This document shows, one piece after another, positions 3 through 8,484 of a DNA stretch of 8,484 nucleotides. The position numbers and the translations under genes were made by a program. The stretch is from an uncultured Oscillospiraceae bacterium (lineage in GTDB: Bacteria; Bacillota; Clostridia; Oscillospirales; Oscillospiraceae). Below the pieces are notes generated by a model. It was not told the origin of the DNA, searched no databases, and saw nothing but the letters and a program-made list of their open reading frames with translations. Every line of letters starts with the position of its first letter. The stretch's first letter is position 1. The DNA lies in NCBI GenBank assembly GCA_934561725.1, contig CAKTGW010000021.1, positions 1 to 8,484 of the forward strand, read 5' to 3'.

Positions 3-557
3 ACCGGCAGCGCCTTTACGGATGTACGGCCGAAGGACTGGTTTTATGCGGATGTGATGAGCGCTGTGGATATGGGGCTCATCAACGGTATGGGAAACGG
101 ACGCTTTGAGCCTGAGGGTACGATCACTGTAGCTCAGGTCATTAAGCTTGCGGCCTGTACCCACCAGCGCTATCATGACGGAAAGGTCACCCTGCAGAAC
201 GGCTCGCCCTGGTATAAGCCCTATGTGGACTATGCTCTGGCAAACGGGATGATCTCTGAAGAGCCGGCCGACTATAATGCGGCCAGCAGCCGGAGCTATT
301 ATATTGCGGTGATGTATCAGGCCATGCCGCAGCGGGAATATGCCGTTATCAATACGATCGCGGACGGTGCGGTGCCGGATGTTCCCGTTGGAACAACGGC
401 CTATGAGGCGATTTACGGCTTCTACCGCGCAGGGATCCTGACCGGCTATGAGGACGGTTCCTTTGGGATCGACCGGCAGGTCAAGCGCAGTGAGGTCGCT
501 ACGCTGGTAGCGCGGATGTTTGACCCGTCGGTGCGCAAAAACGTTGATTTGACCTGA
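3..557 (+). CDS. SLH-domain cell-surface protein, C-terminal part (5' end outside window)
   Basis: The frame is open from the first bases of the window, so only the last 184 residues are visible and the true start lies upstream. The visible part is made of three S-layer-homology repeats. Repeat 1 (about residues 5-50) begins FTDV, has DWFYADV and then GLINGMGNGRFEPEGTIT. Repeat 2 (about 66-108) has PWYKPYVDYALANGMI and is more degenerate. Repeat 3 (about 124-175) has VPDVP, then AGILTGYEDGSFG and KRSEVATLVARMF. SLH triplets anchor exported proteins non-covalently to pyruvylated secondary cell-wall polymers, so this is probably the wall-anchoring tail of an exported protein. The catalytic or adhesive part, if any, is not visible. 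The protein ends 13 residues after the last repeat, and 67 bases separate it from mnmE. The SLH assignment is firm; the overall function is unknown. Confidence 0.88.
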   Translation, partial: TGSAFTDVRPKDWFYADVMSAVDMGLINGMGNGRFEPEGTITVAQVIKLAACTHQRYHDGKVTLQNGSPWYKPYVDYALANGMISEEPADYNAASSRSYYIAVMYQAMPQREYAVINTIADGAVPDVPVGTTAYEAIYGFYRAGILTGYEDGSFGIDRQVKRSEVATLVARMFDPSVRKNVDLT

Positions 558-2398: not shown

Positions 2399-3862
2399 AT
2401 GACATTGGGCAACGGCAATAATGAAAAACTGAATTTGACCATGCTCTGCGACTTCTATGAGCTGACCATGGGCAACGGATACTTTAATTATGGGTATACC
2501 GACCGCATCACGTATTTCGATCTCTTTTACCGCAGAGTGCCGGATGACGGCGGATATGCCATTGCGGCAGGTCTGGAGCAGGTGATCGATTATGTCCGTA
2601 ATCTGCATTTCTCACCGGAGGACATTGCATACCTCAGAGGGCGCAATATGTTCAGCGAGGGCTTTCTGGATTATCTGGCCAACTTTAAGTTTACCGGCGA
2701 TATCTGGGCAGTGCCTGAGGGTACACCGATTTTTCCGCGGGAGCCGATCATTACGGTGCGGGCGCCGGCTATTCAGGCCCAACTGCTGGAGACCTTCCTG
2801 CTGCTGACTATCAACCATCAGAGTCTGATCGCAACCAAGGCCAGCCGTATCGTGGCTGCGGCCAAGGGCAGAGCGGTCCTGGAATTTGGCTCACGCCGGG
2901 CTCAGGGGGCGGACGGCGCCATGCTGGGTGCACGCGCGGCTTATATCGGCGGATGCGCCGGAACGGCGTGCACCATCTCGGATCAGCTCTATGGCGTATA
3001 TGCCGGCGGGACCATGGCGCATTCCTGGGTACAGATGTTCGACAGCCAGTATGAGGCATTTAAGACCTACTGCGAGATCTATCCGGACAATGCCGTGCTG
3101 CTGGTGGATACTTATAACACGCTTAAAAGCGGCATTCCCGACGCGATCCGCGTATTCAACGAGGTGCTCAAGCCCCGGGGGATCACCAAGTGCGGTATCC
3201 GTCTGGATTCCGGCGATATGGCCTATCTGACCCGCAAGGCGCGCAAAATGCTGGATGATGCGGGGTGGACAGAGTGCAGCATCTTTGTCTCCAACTCTCT
3301 GGATGAGTACATTATCCGCGACCTGCTGCTTCAGGGCGCTGTGATCGATACTTTCGGTGTAGGCGAGCGCCTGATCACCGCCAAGAGTGAGCCGGTGTTC
3401 GGCGGCGTCTATAAGCTGGTGGCTGTGGAGGATGCTGACGGTGTGATCCAGCCTAAAATCAAGGTCAGCGAGAATGTGGGAAAGATCACAACACCGCATT
3501 TTAAAAAGACCTACCGCCTGTTTGGCAAGGATACGGGCAAGGCAATCGCAGACTATATCTGCCTCCATGATGAGGAGGTCGATGAGAATCAGGACCTGGA
3601 GATCTTTGATCCGGACGCGATCTGGAAGCGCAAGCACGTCTATAATTTCACGGCCAAGGAGCTGCAGGTGCCTGTATTCCTGAACGGCCGGCTGGTCTAT
3701 GAGCAGCCTTCGCTGCCGGAGATCCGCAAATATTGCCGGGAACAGCTGGATACGCTTTGGGATGAGGTCAAACGCTTTGATAATCCCCATAATTACTATG
3801 TTGATCTTTCACAGAAGCTCTATGATGTTAAGCTTCAGCTTCTGGAGGAGCGCAACTCTTGA
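2399..3862 (+). CDS. pncB: Nicotinate phosphoribosyltransferase
   Basis: The enzyme catalyses the first step of the Preiss-Handler route of NAD salvage in the cytoplasm: nicotinate, PRPP and ATP give nicotinate mononucleotide. The 487-residue product has the normal length for the Firmicute form. Family motifs are in order: DFYELTM near the N-terminus (18-24), GSRRAQG (164-170), and GGTMAHSW (203-210), where His208 fits the histidine phosphorylated during ATP-coupled turnover. These are followed by LLVDTYNT (234-241), IRLDSGD (267-273) and a GVGERLITA phosphate-binding stretch. The start is supported by AAGGA eight bases upstream and by the short family-typical distance to DFYELTM. It is the first gene of a two-gene unit: the TGA stop overlaps the TTG start of niaR. 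That pairing and the NiaR-type operator nearby confirm the niacin context. Confidence 0.97.
   Translation: MTLGNGNNEKLNLTMLCDFYELTMGNGYFNYGYTDRITYFDLFYRRVPDDGGYAIAAGLEQVIDYVRNLHFSPEDIAYLRGRNMFSEGFLDYLANFKFTGDIWAVPEGTPIFPREPIITVRAPAIQAQLLETFLLLTINHQSLIATKASRIVAAAKGRAVLEFGSRRAQGADGAMLGARAAYIGGCAGTACTISDQLYGVYAGGTMAHSWVQMFDSQYEAFKTYCEIYPDNAVLLVDTYNTLKSGIPDAIRVFNEVLKPRGITKCGIRLDSGDMAYLTRKARKMLDDAGWTECSIFVSNSLDEYIIRDLLLQGAVIDTFGVGERLITAKSEPVFGGVYKLVAVEDADGVIQPKIKVSENVGKITTPHFKKTYRLFGKDTGKAIADYICLHDEEVDENQDLEIFDPDAIWKRKHVYNFTAKELQVPVFLNGRLVYEQPSLPEIRKYCREQLDTLWDEVKRFDNPHNYYVDLSQKLYDVKLQLLEERNS
3844..3850 (+). promoter_or_regulatory. Shine-Dalgarno sequence of niaR inside the end of pncB
   Basis: GGAGGAG lies eight bases before the TTG at 3859 and within the last codons of pncB. 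It decides in favour of the TTG start over the ATG at 3880, which has no comparable site in front of it. Ribosomes finishing pncB would stop on top of the niaR start, so the two are probably translationally coupled. Confidence 0.8.
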
Positions 3863-4395
3863 AGCCTGAGATCCAGAATATGACTGCCGAGCAAAGACGG
3901 GCGGCGATCCGCTCACTTCTGGAGAACGCTGCGGCACCGATCAGTGCCAGTGCTCTGGCAGGTCGGTTTTCCGTGAGCCGCCAGATCATTGTAGGGGATA
4001 TTGCGCTGCTGCGGGCGGCCGGAGCGGAGATCTCTGCCACGCCCAGAGGCTATGTCATGCAGCGCATGAATACGGGGCTGCGCCGGACGGTTGCCTGTCT
4101 GCACAGCCTGGAGGATACAGCCAAGGAGCTCTATCTTATCGTGGATAACGGCTGCGCAGTGCTGGATGTAGTAGTGGAACACCCGATATACGGGCAGCTG
4201 ACCGGGCCGCTGGAGCTGCACAGCCGCTATGATGTACAGCGCTTTCTGGAAAAGCTGTCGGTCAATGCACCGCCGCTGTCCGCGCTCACGGGCGGGATCC
4301 ATCTGCACACACTGAGCTGTCCGGAAGAGGCGGCATATAGCCGGGTGCTGGAGGCGTTGGAAAAAGAACACATCCTCCTCACGGAAAACGCTTGA
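3859..4395 (+). CDS. niaR: Niacin-responsive transcriptional repressor NiaR (HTH_11 + 3H domain)
   Basis: NiaR (YrxA) is the Firmicute repressor of NAD-synthesis and niacin-transport genes, with niacin as co-repressor. The 178-residue protein has an N-terminal winged-helix HTH (about residues 10-65, with ISASALAGRFSVSRQIIVGDIALLRAAG). A C-terminal 3H ligand-binding domain follows (about 75-172), with LHSLEDTAKELYLIVDNG, DVVVEHPIYGQL and LTGGIHLHTL. His82, Glu90, His148 and His150 match in spacing the metal ligands I recall for the Thermotoga homologue TM1602, so the metal and ligand site looks intact. Translation starts at TTG, overlapping the pncB stop. The TGA stop lies inside the -35 box of the promoter for the next gene. 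The obvious target is the palindrome immediately downstream; no copy is visible at its own pncB promoter. Confidence 0.95.
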   Translation: MKPEIQNMTAEQRRAAIRSLLENAAAPISASALAGRFSVSRQIIVGDIALLRAAGAEISATPRGYVMQRMNTGLRRTVACLHSLEDTAKELYLIVDNGCAVLDVVVEHPIYGQLTGPLELHSRYDVQRFLEKLSVNAPPLSALTGGIHLHTLSCPEEAAYSRVLEALEKEHILLTENA

Positions 4396-4420
4396 CAATT
4401 CCATAAGAATGATTTATTAT
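4392..4420 (+). promoter_or_regulatory. Strong SigA-type promoter of the PTS_EIIC_2-like transporter gene
   Basis: A consensus TTGACA (-35, 4392-4397) overlaps the niaR stop codon. It is followed after 17 bases by TATTAT (-10, 4415-4420). Transcription would start near 4427, inside the palindromic operator. The near-ideal promoter suits a gene that is strongly expressed when the repressor is off. Confidence 0.87.
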
Positions 4421-4455
4421 GCCTTACAGGTGTCTTGACACATGTAAGGCATAAT
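4416..4455. promoter_or_regulatory. NiaR-type operator palindrome over the -10 and start site
   Basis: Two 19-base arms (4416-4434 and 4437-4455) are reverse complements with one mismatch (G4429 against A4442) around a central TT. The core half-sites are TTACAGGTGTC and GACACATGTAA, which agrees with my memory of NiaR sites in Firmicutes. It starts inside the -10 box and covers the first 25 or so transcribed bases, so a bound dimer should block RNA polymerase. The two-base centre is too tight for an RNA hairpin loop, which favours a DNA operator. niaR lies directly upstream, so repression by its product is the simplest reading. This is an inference from site, position and neighbour. Confidence 0.85.
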
Positions 4456-4475
4456 TATTACTTATTGAAGGTTGG

Positions 4476-5558
4476 ATGAGAATGGCAGACTTCAAGGCGT
4501 TTCTGAAGCGGAAGAATATTGAGATCTCCGCAAAGCGATATGGAGTGGACGCACTGGGCGCAATGGCTCAGGGACTCTTCTGCTCACTTTTGATCGGAAC
4601 GATCATCAAAACTCTGGGCCAGCAGCTGAATATTGCGCTTCTGGTAGATATCGGCCAATATGCTTTTGATATGGCCGGGCCGGCCATGGCCGTAGCAATC
4701 GGCTATGCGCTCCGCTGCGATCCCATGGTGCTGTTTTCTCTGGTAGCCGTTGGCTGGGCGGCCAATAAAGAGGGCGGCGCGGGCGGCCCCCTTGCAGTGC
4801 TGCTTATTGCCATTATTGCCGGTGAGTGCGGCAAAATGGTCTCTAAGGAGACAAAAATCGATATTCTGGTCACGCCTGCCGTAACGATCCTGGTGGGTGT
4901 GGCTCTGGCAAAATGGATCGCACCGCCGATCGGCGCAGGGGCTATGAAGGTGGGCGACTTTATTATGTGGGCAACAGATCTTCAGCCCTTCTGGATGGGG
5001 ATCCTGGTGTCCGTGACAGTCGGTATTGCGCTGACACTCCCTATCTCCTCGGCTGCGATCTGTGCGTCGCTGGGGCTTGTTGGACTGGCCGGCGGAGCGG
5101 CCGTAGCTGGCTGCTGTGCACAGATGGTGGGCTTTGCGGTCATGTCCTTCAGAGAAAACCGCTGGGGCGGTCTGATCTCACAGGGACTGGGTACCTCTAT
5201 GCTCCAGATGCCGAATATTGTGCGCAATCCGCTGATCTGGATCCCGCCTACGCTGGCCTCTGCGATCACCGGCCCAATCGCTACATGTGTGTTTAAGATG
5301 CAGATGAACGGCGCGCCGGTCTCCTCCGGTATGGGTACCTGCGGGTTGGTCGGTCAGATCGGCGTGTGGACGGGCTGGGTGGCTCCCGGTGAGAAGGCAC
5401 TGGCAATGGGCGCACAGGCAATCGTACCCGGTGCGTTCGAATGGACAGGAATGCTGCTGATCTGCTTTATTCTTCCGGCAGTGCTGTCATGGCTGATCTG
5501 CCTTGGCTGCCGCCGGCTGGGCTGGATCAAGGAAAACGATCTGAAGCTGGATCGATAA
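4476..5558 (+). CDS. PTS_EIIC_2 / PfoR-like membrane protein, candidate niacin-regulated transporter
   Basis: This 360-residue polytopic membrane protein opens with a short basic segment and the signature ISAKRYGVDALGAMAQGLF, followed by SLLIGTIIKTLG. That is typical of the EIIC-like family often labelled 'PTS sugar transporter subunit IIC' or PfoR (PF13303/COG3641). Roughly nine hydrophobic stretches are visible, near 25-47, 62-80, 84-94, 104-117, 130-147, 172-190, 194-222, 256-273 and 322-347. The sequence is rich in Gly and Ala, with PISSAAICASLGLVGLAGGAA. No IIA or IIB phosphotransfer domain is fused or adjacent, so sugar phosphorylation is not supported. Control by a NiaR-type operator and proximity to pncB-niaR argue for nicotinate/nicotinamide or precursor uptake. 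I recall an annotation 'predicted nicotinate-regulated transporter BH3254' for related proteins, but could not verify it. The start could also be the ATG at 4482, since GAAGG (4467-4471) lies 4 or 10 bases upstream. Confidence 0.85.
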   Translation: MRMADFKAFLKRKNIEISAKRYGVDALGAMAQGLFCSLLIGTIIKTLGQQLNIALLVDIGQYAFDMAGPAMAVAIGYALRCDPMVLFSLVAVGWAANKEGGAGGPLAVLLIAIIAGECGKMVSKETKIDILVTPAVTILVGVALAKWIAPPIGAGAMKVGDFIMWATDLQPFWMGILVSVTVGIALTLPISSAAICASLGLVGLAGGAAVAGCCAQMVGFAVMSFRENRWGGLISQGLGTSMLQMPNIVRNPLIWIPPTLASAITGPIATCVFKMQMNGAPVSSGMGTCGLVGQIGVWTGWVAPGEKALAMGAQAIVPGAFEWTGMLLICFILPAVLSWLICLGCRRLGWIKENDLKLDR

Positions 5559-5609: not shown

Positions 5610-5645
5610 AAAAACGGCGCGGCTGTTACTGGCCGCGCCGTTTTT
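5610..5645. terminator. Perfect-hairpin terminator after the transporter gene
   Basis: AAAAACGGCGCGGC (5610-5623) and GCCGCGCCGTTTTT (5632-5645) form a perfect 14-bp stem with an eight-base loop. The stem carries its T-tract on the plus strand and an A-tract on the other side, so it could work in both directions. It closes the niaR-controlled unit about 50 bases past the stop. Confidence 0.93.
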
Positions 5646-5837: not shown

Positions 5838-6444
5838 ATGGACTGTGAAAAGGTAGGCAGATTGATCTGCGCTCTGCGCCGGGAAAAGGGATTCACACAG
5901 CGCAAACTGGCGGATATGCTGCATTTGAGTGACCGTACTGTCTCAAAATGGGAGAGAGGACTGGGCTGCCCCGACGTTTCTCTGCTCAGTGAGGTATCCA
6001 GAGCTCTGGGAGTGAATATTGAGGGACTGCTGGCGGGTGAGCTGGATGAAAAAAGTACAGACGGAGGCAATATGAAAAGACTGAAATTTTATGTATATCC
6101 CCAATGTGGGAATATACTTACTGCCACATCGCAGGCCGAGATCGCCTGCTGCGGCAAACGGCTGGAGCCGCTGAAGGCGCAGCCTGCGGACGAGATGAAC
6201 GGGATACGTATGGAGCGGGTGGAGGATGATGATTATATCACCTTTGACCATGAGATGACAAAGACGCATTTTTTGCGTTTTTTTTGCCTATGCGCAATAT
6301 GACCGGCTCGTGTTGGTGCGGCTGTATCCCGAACAGGGCGGCGAGGTCAGGATCCCTGCAATGCGGGGCGGGAAGCTGTACTTCTGCTGCTCGGAGCATG
6401 GACTGTTTGAGTATGGGAACAGCTCCGGAATTATCCGGAAATAA
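5838..6444 (+). pseudogene. XRE-family regulator with desulfoferrodoxin/superoxide-reductase-like C-terminus, frameshifted
   Basis: The N-terminus (about residues 6-66) is a complete Cro/CI-type HTH with FTQRKLADMLHLSDRTVSKWERG. Next comes a rubredoxin/desulforedoxin-like knuckle (about 84-111: YPQCGNI then CCGKRLEPL). A C-terminal domain follows, with DYITFDHEMTKTH and, downstream, LYFCCSEHGLF. This architecture is common in Clostridia and looks like an HTH joined to a superoxide-reductase fold, possibly a metal or redox sensor. In this copy the reading frame ends early at 6300-6302 after 154 residues. Dropping one T from the eight-T run (6278-6285) restores AYAQYDRLVLVRLYPEQGGEV and the rest of the domain to the stop at 6442-6444, for 201 residues. 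The usual first Cys of the knuckle is also replaced (Tyr87, codon TAT). The HTH alone could still be made. A sequencing error, phase variation or slippage remains possible for the T8 lesion. Confidence 0.82.
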
Positions 6445-6454
6445 GGCTGAAAAT

Positions 6455-6513: not shown

Positions 6514-8484
6514 TCAGCACATTTTTGCGCCGGCAGGAATGGCATCGGAAAGCATCAGCAGATTCAGCTTTTCTTCGCCGTGCTCCTTGTGTACGGCAGA
6601 GATCAGCATACCGCAGCTCTCCAGTCCCATCATTTTGCGGGGCGGCAGATTGACAATGGCCATCAGTGTCTTGCCGATCAGCTCTTCGGGCTTGTAGTAC
6701 ATGGCGATGCCGGAGAGGATCTGGCGGTCTGTGCCGGTACCGTCGTCCAGCGTGAAGCGCAGGAGCTTGTTGGATTTTTTAACGGGCTGGCAGTCCTTGA
6801 CCTTTACGGCACGGAAATCGTTCTTGCAGAAGGATTCAAAATCCACATTCTCATCATTCTGTGGCTCCAGCTCTACAGCGGGGAGCGCAGCTTTTTTTGC
6901 GGCTTCGGTGGCGGCTTCCAGCTCGGCCAGAGCCTTTTCTGCGTCTACGCGGGGGAAGAGATTCTCGCCCTTGGTCACAGCAGCGCTGTCAGAGAGACTG
7001 CCCCAATGGCCGACACTGTCCCAGGTCTGCACATCTGCGGGGGCGCCGATCTGAGCAAAAAGCTTTGTCATGCTCTCGGGCATGAAGGGAGTGAGAAGCA
7101 CGCCGGCGATACGTGCGCATTCCAGAAGGTTATACATCACATGTGCCAGACGGGAGGCGTTGGCATCCATATTCTTGGCCAGAACCCAGGGGGCGTTCTC
7201 ATCGATATATTTATTTGCGCGGTCGATCAGCTTAAATACTTCAGCCAGAGCATTGTGAGGGGCAAAGCTGTCCATCTGAGCGGCGTAGCTGTCCCGAAGT
7301 GCAGAGGCCATGGCAATCAGCTCGCGGTCGCAGTCCAGAGGCTCGCTCCATTCGCGGCAGCCGCCGGGCAGCTTTCCGCCAAAGTACTTGCCCACCATAG
7401 CGGTGGTGCGGCTGACCAGATTGCCCAGATCGTTGGCAAGGTCAGTGTTGATCGTCTGGATCAGAAGCTCATTGGAGAAATTGCCGTCGGAGCCGAAGGG
7501 GAAGGTACGCATCAGGAAAAAACGCAGGGTATCCACGCCGAACTGCTCGGCCAGAATATAGGGATCCACCACATTGCCCTTGGATTTGCTCATCTTGCCG
7601 CCGTCCAGCAGCAGCCAGCCGTGGCCGAATACCTTTTTGGGCAGAGGCAGCTCCATGCTCATGAGCATGGCAGGCCAGATGATCGAGTGGAAACGCACGA
7701 TCTCCTTACCCACAAAATGTACATCGGCGGGCCAGAACTTATCGTAGTCGTCATAGCGGTCGTTATACAGGCCCAGGGCAGTGGTGTAATTGAACAGAGC
7801 ATCTACCCAGACGTAGACAACATGGCCCGGATCAAAGTCCACGGGCACGCCCCAGGTGAAGCTGGTGCGGGAGACGCACAGATCCTCCAGACCCGGCTTG
7901 ATGAAGTTGTTGACCATCTCGTTTACGCGGGTGCGGGGCTGCAGGAAGTCGGTGTTCTCCAGCAGATCTCGTACCCGGTCGGCATATTTGGAGAGCCGGA
8001 AGAAATAGGCCTCCTCTTCTGCATCCTGCACCTCCCGGCCGCAGTCGGGGCATTTTCCGTCCACCAGTTGGCTCTCGGTCCAGAAGCTCTCGCAGGGCTT
8101 GCAGTATTTGCCCTTATAGGTGCCCTTGTAGATATCGCCCTTGTCGTACAGCTTCTTGAAGATCTTCTGGATGGCAGAGACATGGTAGTCATCTGTGGTG
8201 CGGATGAAGCGGTCGTTGGAGATGTTCATCAGCTTCCACAGATCCTTAACGCCCCGGGGACCCTCTACAATGTTATCAACGAACTGCTTGGGGGTTACGC
8301 CGGCCTCTTTGGCCTTGTCCTCGATTTTCTGGCCGTGCTCATCTGTACCGGTGAGGAACATGACGTCGTAGCCCTGGAGGCGCTTATAGCGTGCCATGGC
8401 GTCGGTTGCCACGGTGCAGTAGGTGTGGCCAATATGCAGCTTATCAGAGGGATAATAAATAGGGGTGGTGATATAAAACTTCGG
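6514..8484 (-). CDS. metG: Methionyl-tRNA synthetase (N-terminal few residues outside window)
   Basis: This class I aminoacyl-tRNA synthetase charges tRNA-Met and initiator tRNA with methionine in the cytoplasm. The frame stays open to the right edge, giving 656 visible residues from PKFYITTPIYYPSDKLHIGHTY; only a handful of residues before PKFY should be missing. Numbered from the window edge, the HIGH motif is at 17-20. The zinc-knuckle cysteines are C128-x-x-C131 and C145-x-x-C148. KMSKS is at 297-301 within GGKMSKSKGNVVDP. The anticodon-binding helical domain follows. A Trbp111-like OB-fold tRNA-binding domain closes the protein (about 548-656, with FRAVKVKDCQPV, LLRFTLDDG and LPPRKMMGLESCGMLIS). 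The domain order is typical of Firmicute MetRS. No defect is seen. Internal starts such as the GTG at 8412 are excluded because the HIGH motif lies upstream of them. Confidence 0.97.
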   Translation of the reverse strand, partial: PKFYITTPIYYPSDKLHIGHTYCTVATDAMARYKRLQGYDVMFLTGTDEHGQKIEDKAKEAGVTPKQFVDNIVEGPRGVKDLWKLMNISNDRFIRTTDDYHVSAIQKIFKKLYDKGDIYKGTYKGKYCKPCESFWTESQLVDGKCPDCGREVQDAEEEAYFFRLSKYADRVRDLLENTDFLQPRTRVNEMVNNFIKPGLEDLCVSRTSFTWGVPVDFDPGHVVYVWVDALFNYTTALGLYNDRYDDYDKFWPADVHFVGKEIVRFHSIIWPAMLMSMELPLPKKVFGHGWLLLDGGKMSKSKGNVVDPYILAEQFGVDTLRFFLMRTFPFGSDGNFSNELLIQTINTDLANDLGNLVSRTTAMVGKYFGGKLPGGCREWSEPLDCDRELIAMASALRDSYAAQMDSFAPHNALAEVFKLIDRANKYIDENAPWVLAKNMDANASRLAHVMYNLLECARIAGVLLTPFMPESMTKLFAQIGAPADVQTWDSVGHWGSLSDSAAVTKGENLFPRVDAEKALAELEAATEAAKKAALPAVELEPQNDENVDFESFCKNDFRAVKVKDCQPVKKSNKLLRFTLDDGTGTDRQILSGIAMYYKPEELIGKTLMAIVNLPPRKMMGLESCGMLISAVHKEHGEEKLNLLMLSDAIPAGAKMC

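Follow-up and report, generated by a model that had tools for sequence, protein, structure and literature searches.

What does a membrane protein of the Pfam family PF13303, named as enzyme IIC (EIIC) of the phosphotransferase system (PTS), carry when its gene directly follows pncB and niaR? The question is posed by contig CAKTGW010000021.1 of an uncultured Oscillospiraceae bacterium, of which we analysed a stretch of 8,484 nt (the window). Sequence evidence makes it probable that the PF13303 protein is an importer of niacin, in the form of nicotinate or nicotinamide, and that it works uncoupled from PTS phosphorylation; NiaR, the niacin-responsive repressor, is predicted to shut the gene off through a palindrome at 4416-4455. 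The niaR gene is present in the window itself, directly upstream of the PF13303 gene, and overlaps by 4 bp pncB, whose product is the enzyme that would use the imported niacin; all three genes lie on the + strand. Coordinates and Pfam matches bear out this gene order, which had been proposed in an earlier reading made from the letters alone (the sequence-only reading).

The palindrome has arms at 4416-4434 and 4437-4455, separated by 2 nt, with 18 of 19 positions paired (ATTATGCCTTACAGGTGTC-TT-GACACATGTAAGGCATAAT); a repeat search returned a longer version (30 nt, 80%, 4405-4466). The promoter of the PF13303 gene agrees with the consensus at 11 of 12 positions, with a −35 box TTGACA at 4392-4397, a 17-bp spacer and a −10 box TATTAT at 4415-4420. 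The −35 box overlaps the niaR stop codon, and the palindrome covers the −10 box and the expected transcription start. The sequence-only reading was therefore accurate in describing a palindrome with 19-bp arms and one mismatch over the −10 box and start of a near-consensus promoter.

A weight matrix was built from 47 strict sites of relatives, with the window excluded (consensus TTACAGGTGTCNNGACACCTGTAA). Its inner eight positions are fixed by construction, because the sites were collected by their core; the ten flanking positions, which were not used in the collection, carry 0.57-1.24 bits. The window palindrome is more than a chance occurrence: its site scores 34.0 bits, compared with 8.6 bits for the runner-up elsewhere in the window and no more than 15.8 bits in 30 mononucleotide shuffles.

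The type I NiaR operator is given as TGT-N4-ACA and assigned to Bacillus/Clostridium and Fusobacteria in PMC7713382 (this and the other papers cited by PMC number were available as excerpts). The window core, TGTCTTGACA, is identical to the core of the predicted site R1 of PnadC in Streptococcus pneumoniae and to that of the Bacillus halodurans nifS-nadB site used in an electrophoretic mobility shift assay (excerpts of PMC7713382 and PMC5343564). Likeness to R1 alone proves nothing, because the active site of PnadC is R2, not R1 (PMC5343564, in excerpt). The window site differs from these operators in that its arms extend to 19 bp. As for the repressor, the niaR product matches three PDB sequences (9ebr, 1j5y and 7cv0; E 9e-39 to 1.5e-33), two of which are named NiaR, and its His82, His148 and His150 align in the PDB-match alignment with those residues of B. 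halodurans NiaR that the excerpted text of PMC7713382 describes as niacin/zinc histidines.

If the palindrome is a NiaR operator, it should accompany niaR from genome to genome. We collected the 80 closest genomic relatives of the PF13303 gene (68-83% identity), 79 of which had a usable upstream region (L048, with a truncated start, was left out). The type I core was present upstream of the PF13303 gene in 36 of the 79 loci and its strict form, TGTCNNGACA, in 32. Fifty of the 80 loci, picked after the sites had been seen and before the presence of NiaR was known, were taken to genome searches. The strict site was found in 27 of 32 loci with NiaR versus 1 of 18 without (L018; Fisher p 4e-8); for the loose TGT-N4-ACA the counts were 30 of 32 versus 1 of 18, including weak chance matches such as that in L068. 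A second sample consisted of 197 evenly drawn genomes of the order (90% completeness was requested; no completeness values were reported). Here the site test used 89 genes for 89 of the 90 genomes that carry PF13303; it left out the fragmented G156, second or partial copies in G189, G198 and G089, and the doubled L170, and the start call of L082 was faulty. Among relatives of at least 60% identity (40 genes), the strict site occurred in 21 of 26 with NiaR versus 0 of 14 without (p 5e-7); in L108, one of the five NiaR-containing misses, the site is present and had been lost to a start-call error. The co-occurrence of motif and niaR that the sequence-only reading had proposed to look for is thus seen in both samples. 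Matches to TGTCNNGACA in L128 and L129 were judged to be −35 boxes, not operators. An Rfam scan of 12 loci lacking the NiaR site, made for a riboswitch in its place, gave four matches, none directly 5′ of the transporter gene. In L005 and L020, which have no NiaR match, the transporter gene is without an operator and comes directly after what looks like the end of proC.

A stricter pattern, TGTCNNGACACCTGT, was found in 19 of the 50 whole genomes, at one place in each, and all 19 have NiaR. The place is 5′ of the PF13303 gene in 18 genomes and 5′ of a nad operon in one; the reversed pattern, used as a control, gave 4 matches in 4 genomes. In Blautia wexlerae the motif fronts nadB-nadC-niaR-nadA, a canonical NiaR target, and so is linked to NiaR through genes of known function. 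The niaR gene of this species sits inside the nad operon that NiaR would control (L177, 1082-4851), and the site at its PF13303 gene (L178) is of the TGTATATACA type, in diverged form.

The arms of the window palindrome are longer than the operator core, which brings in the alternative that the palindrome is a hairpin only, for instance a pncB-niaR terminator, and not a NiaR site. Outer arms differ in sequence between genomes and keep their complementarity (L145, L024, L033, L012, L041 and others; bulged in L003 and L017), and this behaviour in several relatives of the window is a further difference from the type I operator. Over 47 sites including the window, 3.55 of 7 outer-arm positions pair versus 2.34 after shuffling (none of 2000 shuffles reached the observed value), and over 35 non-redundant sites 3.40 versus 2.28. 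T-rich tails follow the palindrome on its 3′ side at several loci. These data suggest that some loci keep a hairpin in addition to the operator, with the reservation that related sequences can exceed shuffles without structure. However, the flanking positions outside the core are conserved as sequence (the 0.57-1.24 bits given above), the motif occurs in genomes with NiaR, hardly in those without, and also 5′ of the nad operon, and the window palindrome has no entry in the terminator-scan list. A hairpin role is compatible with an operator role; a hairpin alone is hardly credible as an explanation. Long and short palindromes could not be told apart by the orientation of the upstream open reading frame (ORF), in mechanical ORF calls that are confounded by antisense ORFs.

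The gene content of the carriers points to niacin as the substrate. In the order sample PF13303 was found in 90 genomes, PncB in 134, NadA in 67 and NiaR in 53. PncB is present in 86 of the 90 PF13303 carriers versus 48 of the 107 non-carriers (p 9e-16), and NadA in 8 of 90 versus 59 of 107 (p 2e-12); among PncB-containing genomes the NadA counts are 8 of 86 versus 20 of 48 (p 3e-5). Association with NiaR is mild (33 of 90 versus 20 of 107, p 0.006). Counted from the other side, 78 of the 106 genomes with PncB and without NadA carry PF13303. Among the 50 close-relative genomes, 43 have PncB and two have NadA. The relatives thus show what would be expected around a niacin transporter, salvage by PncB with the de novo genes absent; by gene content only, the carriers are mostly niacin auxotrophs with PncB.

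The same counts bear on the possibility that the protein, under NiaR control, takes up another precursor of nicotinamide adenine dinucleotide (NAD), such as nicotinamide riboside, nicotinamide mononucleotide or nicotinic acid riboside, or another pyridine. NiaR also controls pnuC in S. pneumoniae (PMC5343564, in excerpt), so NiaR control does not prove that free niacin is the substrate, and PncB is unmatched in 4 of the 90 carriers. On the other hand, PncB needs free nicotinate, and its frequency in carriers compared with the other genomes argues against another precursor, as do L099 and L115, two more distant relatives in which pncB is the divergent neighbour of the PF13303 gene. Scores above the curated cut-off for NadC are reached in 8 of the 90 carriers, precisely those with NadA, and in 63 of the 107 other genomes; therefore quinolinate would be of no NAD use in most carriers and is ruled out for these. 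Sub-threshold NadC-like proteins were seen in two further carriers, G133 and G210. We regard uptake of a different precursor or pyridine as unlikely.

Several results weigh against niacin import under NiaR control. Independent-pairs tests on the tree lean in the expected direction and are not significant: over 11 pairs differing in NiaR, an average of 2.8 differ in the site in the same sense and 0.6 in the opposite one (median p 0.625), and over 7 pairs differing in the site the figures are 3.1 and 0.5 (median p 0.375). The NiaR-site tables are therefore inflated by kinship; the independent-pairs test itself lacked power. The conservation of the matrix core, being by construction, is not independent evidence. 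Relatives below 60% identity give no signal linking NiaR to the site: of the 7 that have NiaR none shows it, and of the 42 that lack NiaR 2 do. Of the 50 loci, L001 and L056 have NiaR and no credible variant site, and L068 has a weak match only. Fusobacterium vincentii has NiaR and no site just 5′ of its 39%-identical PF13303 gene. In Acetoanaerobium noterae, from another order, niaR also stands in tandem, directly before a PF13303 gene of 48% identity, which in itself favours the link, but there is no TGT-N4-ACA between the two. In none of the 80 closest loci is pncB next to the PF13303 gene; niaR is upstream on the same strand in 13 and divergent in 3 (flanks of up to 6 kb, shorter at contig ends). 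Nor do the four carriers without PncB and the 8 of 90 with NadA fit the expected gene content. Taken literally, most homologues lack the palindrome and the niaR neighbourhood, which the sequence-only reading had counted as evidence against itself (47 of 79 loci are without the strict site, and niaR adjoins in 16 of 80); but absence of the site tracks absence of the niaR gene. Finally, the AlphaFold2 model of the protein (pLDDT 90.7) has the fold of a PTS EIIC, with structural matches to PtsG, MalT and ChbC.

In L001, the closest relative (83%), the sole protein with a 3H domain is divergent in sequence, at 38% to that of the window, and its gene is transcribed divergently. The promoter lacks the usual TGT-N4-ACA and carries some other short palindromic pieces; L001 may possess a NiaR variant that uses an operator of its own.

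Given that fold, the protein might be an ordinary sugar-PTS EIIC whose IIA and IIB are encoded elsewhere, with niaR a mere neighbour. PF13303 takes up residues 25-358 of the 360 amino acids (316.8 bits) and no other domain was matched. IIA or IIB domains were found neither in the seven window ORFs scanned with Pfam nor fused to the PF13303 protein, as the sequence-only reading had it when it spoke of an EIIC-like protein without a partner. The window protein shares the predicted fold of the PTS glucose-superfamily EIICs (PtsG of Escherichia coli, MalT of Bacillus cereus, ChbC) and differs from them in sequence. No similarity to PtsG is detectable (hhalign probability 0.3%), and a PDB sequence search with the protein and its profile gave no credible relative. 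GITE, the sugar-site motif of the glucose superfamily, is present in E. coli PtsG and absent from the window protein, and G[IVL][TS]E occurs in 2 of 103 aligned rows. Enzyme I of the PTS was not found in 58 of the 90 carriers of the order sample, some of which may be explained by assembly gaps, nor in 20 of the 50 close-relative genomes; presence of PF13303 is independent of that of Enzyme I (p 0.88). With the motif tracking niaR and the nad operon besides, a sugar PTS is very improbable. The Pfam name thus seems right on descent, because the predicted fold is that of an EIIC, and wrong on coupling. The sequence-only reading had argued for uptake of niacin or a related pyridine and held the sugar-PTS label to be misleading: the tie between site and niaR, the motif at the nad operon, the auxotrophic carriers with PncB and the mostly unfound Enzyme I support this, and the fold limits it as regards descent.

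Names in the databases are of little help. The search for relatives gave at least 8,000 scored matches; among the matches listed, source names, where given, are mostly PTS IIC, and PF13303 serves as a PTS marker in the excerpted part of PMC6952197. Other source names are 'uncharacterized membrane protein', 'hypothetical protein' and, for one relative, 'regulatory protein (pfos/r)'; the name of another begins 'Regulatory'. PfoS/PfoR, which we take to be COG3641, is a name found on relatives in the Peptostreptococcaceae branch, and it would fit a membrane sensor or regulator in place of a transporter. The name implies regulation but is silent on mechanism, and our evidence favours transport: the predicted fold belongs to a transporter domain, to which no soluble domain is attached, and the protein is distributed as a nutrient importer would be. 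A sensor role is highly unlikely.

We infer that NiaR binds the palindrome with niacin as co-repressor, and that the PF13303 protein transports niacin in the direction and with the energy source proposed here. At low niacin, NiaR would leave the DNA and the transporter would be made; niacin would then enter and be trapped by PncB as nicotinate mononucleotide. At high niacin, NiaR would bind and block RNA polymerase at the −10 box. Transport would be secondary or facilitated, because most carriers seem to be without a PTS.

The idea of such a transporter is probably not new, because NiaR-regulated 'NiaY' transporters were predicted in 2008. Excerpts of PMC5343564, PMC7713382 and PMC6593275 count NiaY among the three families of niacin transporter under NiaR regulation that go back to Rodionov et al. 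2008, and it had been found in five genomes at that time (PMC5343564). Like the window protein, NiaY is described there as a Firmicutes membrane protein placed in the NiaR regulon and proposed for niacin uptake; the comparison is one of descriptions, and NiaY may be PF13303. The excerpt of PMC12735969 uses the name NiaY for a streptococcal transporter and gives no sequence detail. The other two families, NiaP (major facilitator superfamily) and NiaX (the S component of an energy-coupling factor transporter), are likewise described as serving NiaR-controlled niacin uptake in Firmicutes. The window protein differs from both in its predicted EIIC fold, to which the folds of NiaP and NiaX are unrelated. 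The SEED role 'Predicted nicotinate-regulated transporter BH3254' probably denotes the family of the PF13303 protein; a literature search for BH3254 and for that label found no paper. No paper tying PF13303 to niacin appeared among those listed by the literature searches either, a weak negative since hits for PfoR/PfoS were swamped by unrelated acronyms. To that prediction the present analysis adds the evidence from Enzyme I and from the auxotrophic gene content of the carriers.

More broadly, it is an evenly balanced question whether a lineage of EIIC-type sugar permeases left the PTS and now serves niacin-auxotrophic gut Clostridia as their chief importer of vitamin B3, with NiaR shrunk in many of them to a nearly single-target switch on the importer. 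Niacin import by the PF13303 protein, if true, would supply a transporter for those 78 of 106 PncB-containing genomes of the order sample that lack NadA. In the excerpt of PMC6593275, a 2019 survey, a known B3 transporter was present in only 25% of auxotrophs. A widespread mislabel would be corrected, many B3-auxotrophic gut bacteria would gain their missing transporter, and it would be shown that an EIIC fold can work without coupling to phosphorylation.

Neither operator nor substrate should be extended to all of PF13303, because relatives below 60% identity lack NiaR sites and because of the context in Listeria, where a protein of ~28% identity (L175, 2998-4014) lies between LysR-type and GntR-type regulators. 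Distant PF13303 branches probably carry other substrates. A 49%-identical protein is encoded in a gammaproteobacterium, Photobacterium sp. DA100 (L172, 4956-6023), with no niaR among the neighbouring ORFs as judged by eye; this gene was possibly acquired horizontally.

Table. Positions of genes and signals in the 8,484-nt window
Feature	Position	Strand	Evidence or remark
S-layer-homology-domain ORF	54-557		upstream of mnmE; possibly cut by window edge
mnmE	607-1983
pncB, nicotinate phosphoribosyltransferase	2399-3862	+	NCBIfam NF006695, 694.7 bits; Pfam NAPRTase_N and _C
niaR, niacin-responsive repressor	3859-4395	+	Pfam HTH_11 and 3H domain; PDB sequence matches
Promoter of transporter gene, TTGACA-17 bp-TATTAT	4392-4420	+	consensus scan, 11/12
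Palindrome, predicted NiaR operator (type I, TGT-N4-ACA)	4416-4455	+	matrix match 4424-4447
PF13303 membrane protein gene (360 aa), likely niacin importer	4476-5558	+	Pfam; AlphaFold2 (predicted EIIC fold)
Inverted repeat ending in T, probable terminator after transporter gene	5610-5645	+	perfect 14-nt arms
HTH_3 ORF	5838-6302
Methionyl-tRNA synthetase gene	6514-8412	−

The inverted repeat after the transporter gene has no entry in the terminator-scan list, and an Rfam scan of the window gave no match. Just 5′ of the pncB promoter lies another inverted repeat (17 nt, 82%, 20-nt spacer, 2262-2315), at which the NiaR matrix match is not above that in shuffles; a half-site-like match at 2307 scores 8.6 bits, within the shuffle range, and we claim no site there. 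Further downstream, the HTH_3 ORF (5838-6450) is shortened by an apparent change of frame at a T run near 6285, which appears to be an assembly error or the mark of a pseudogene.
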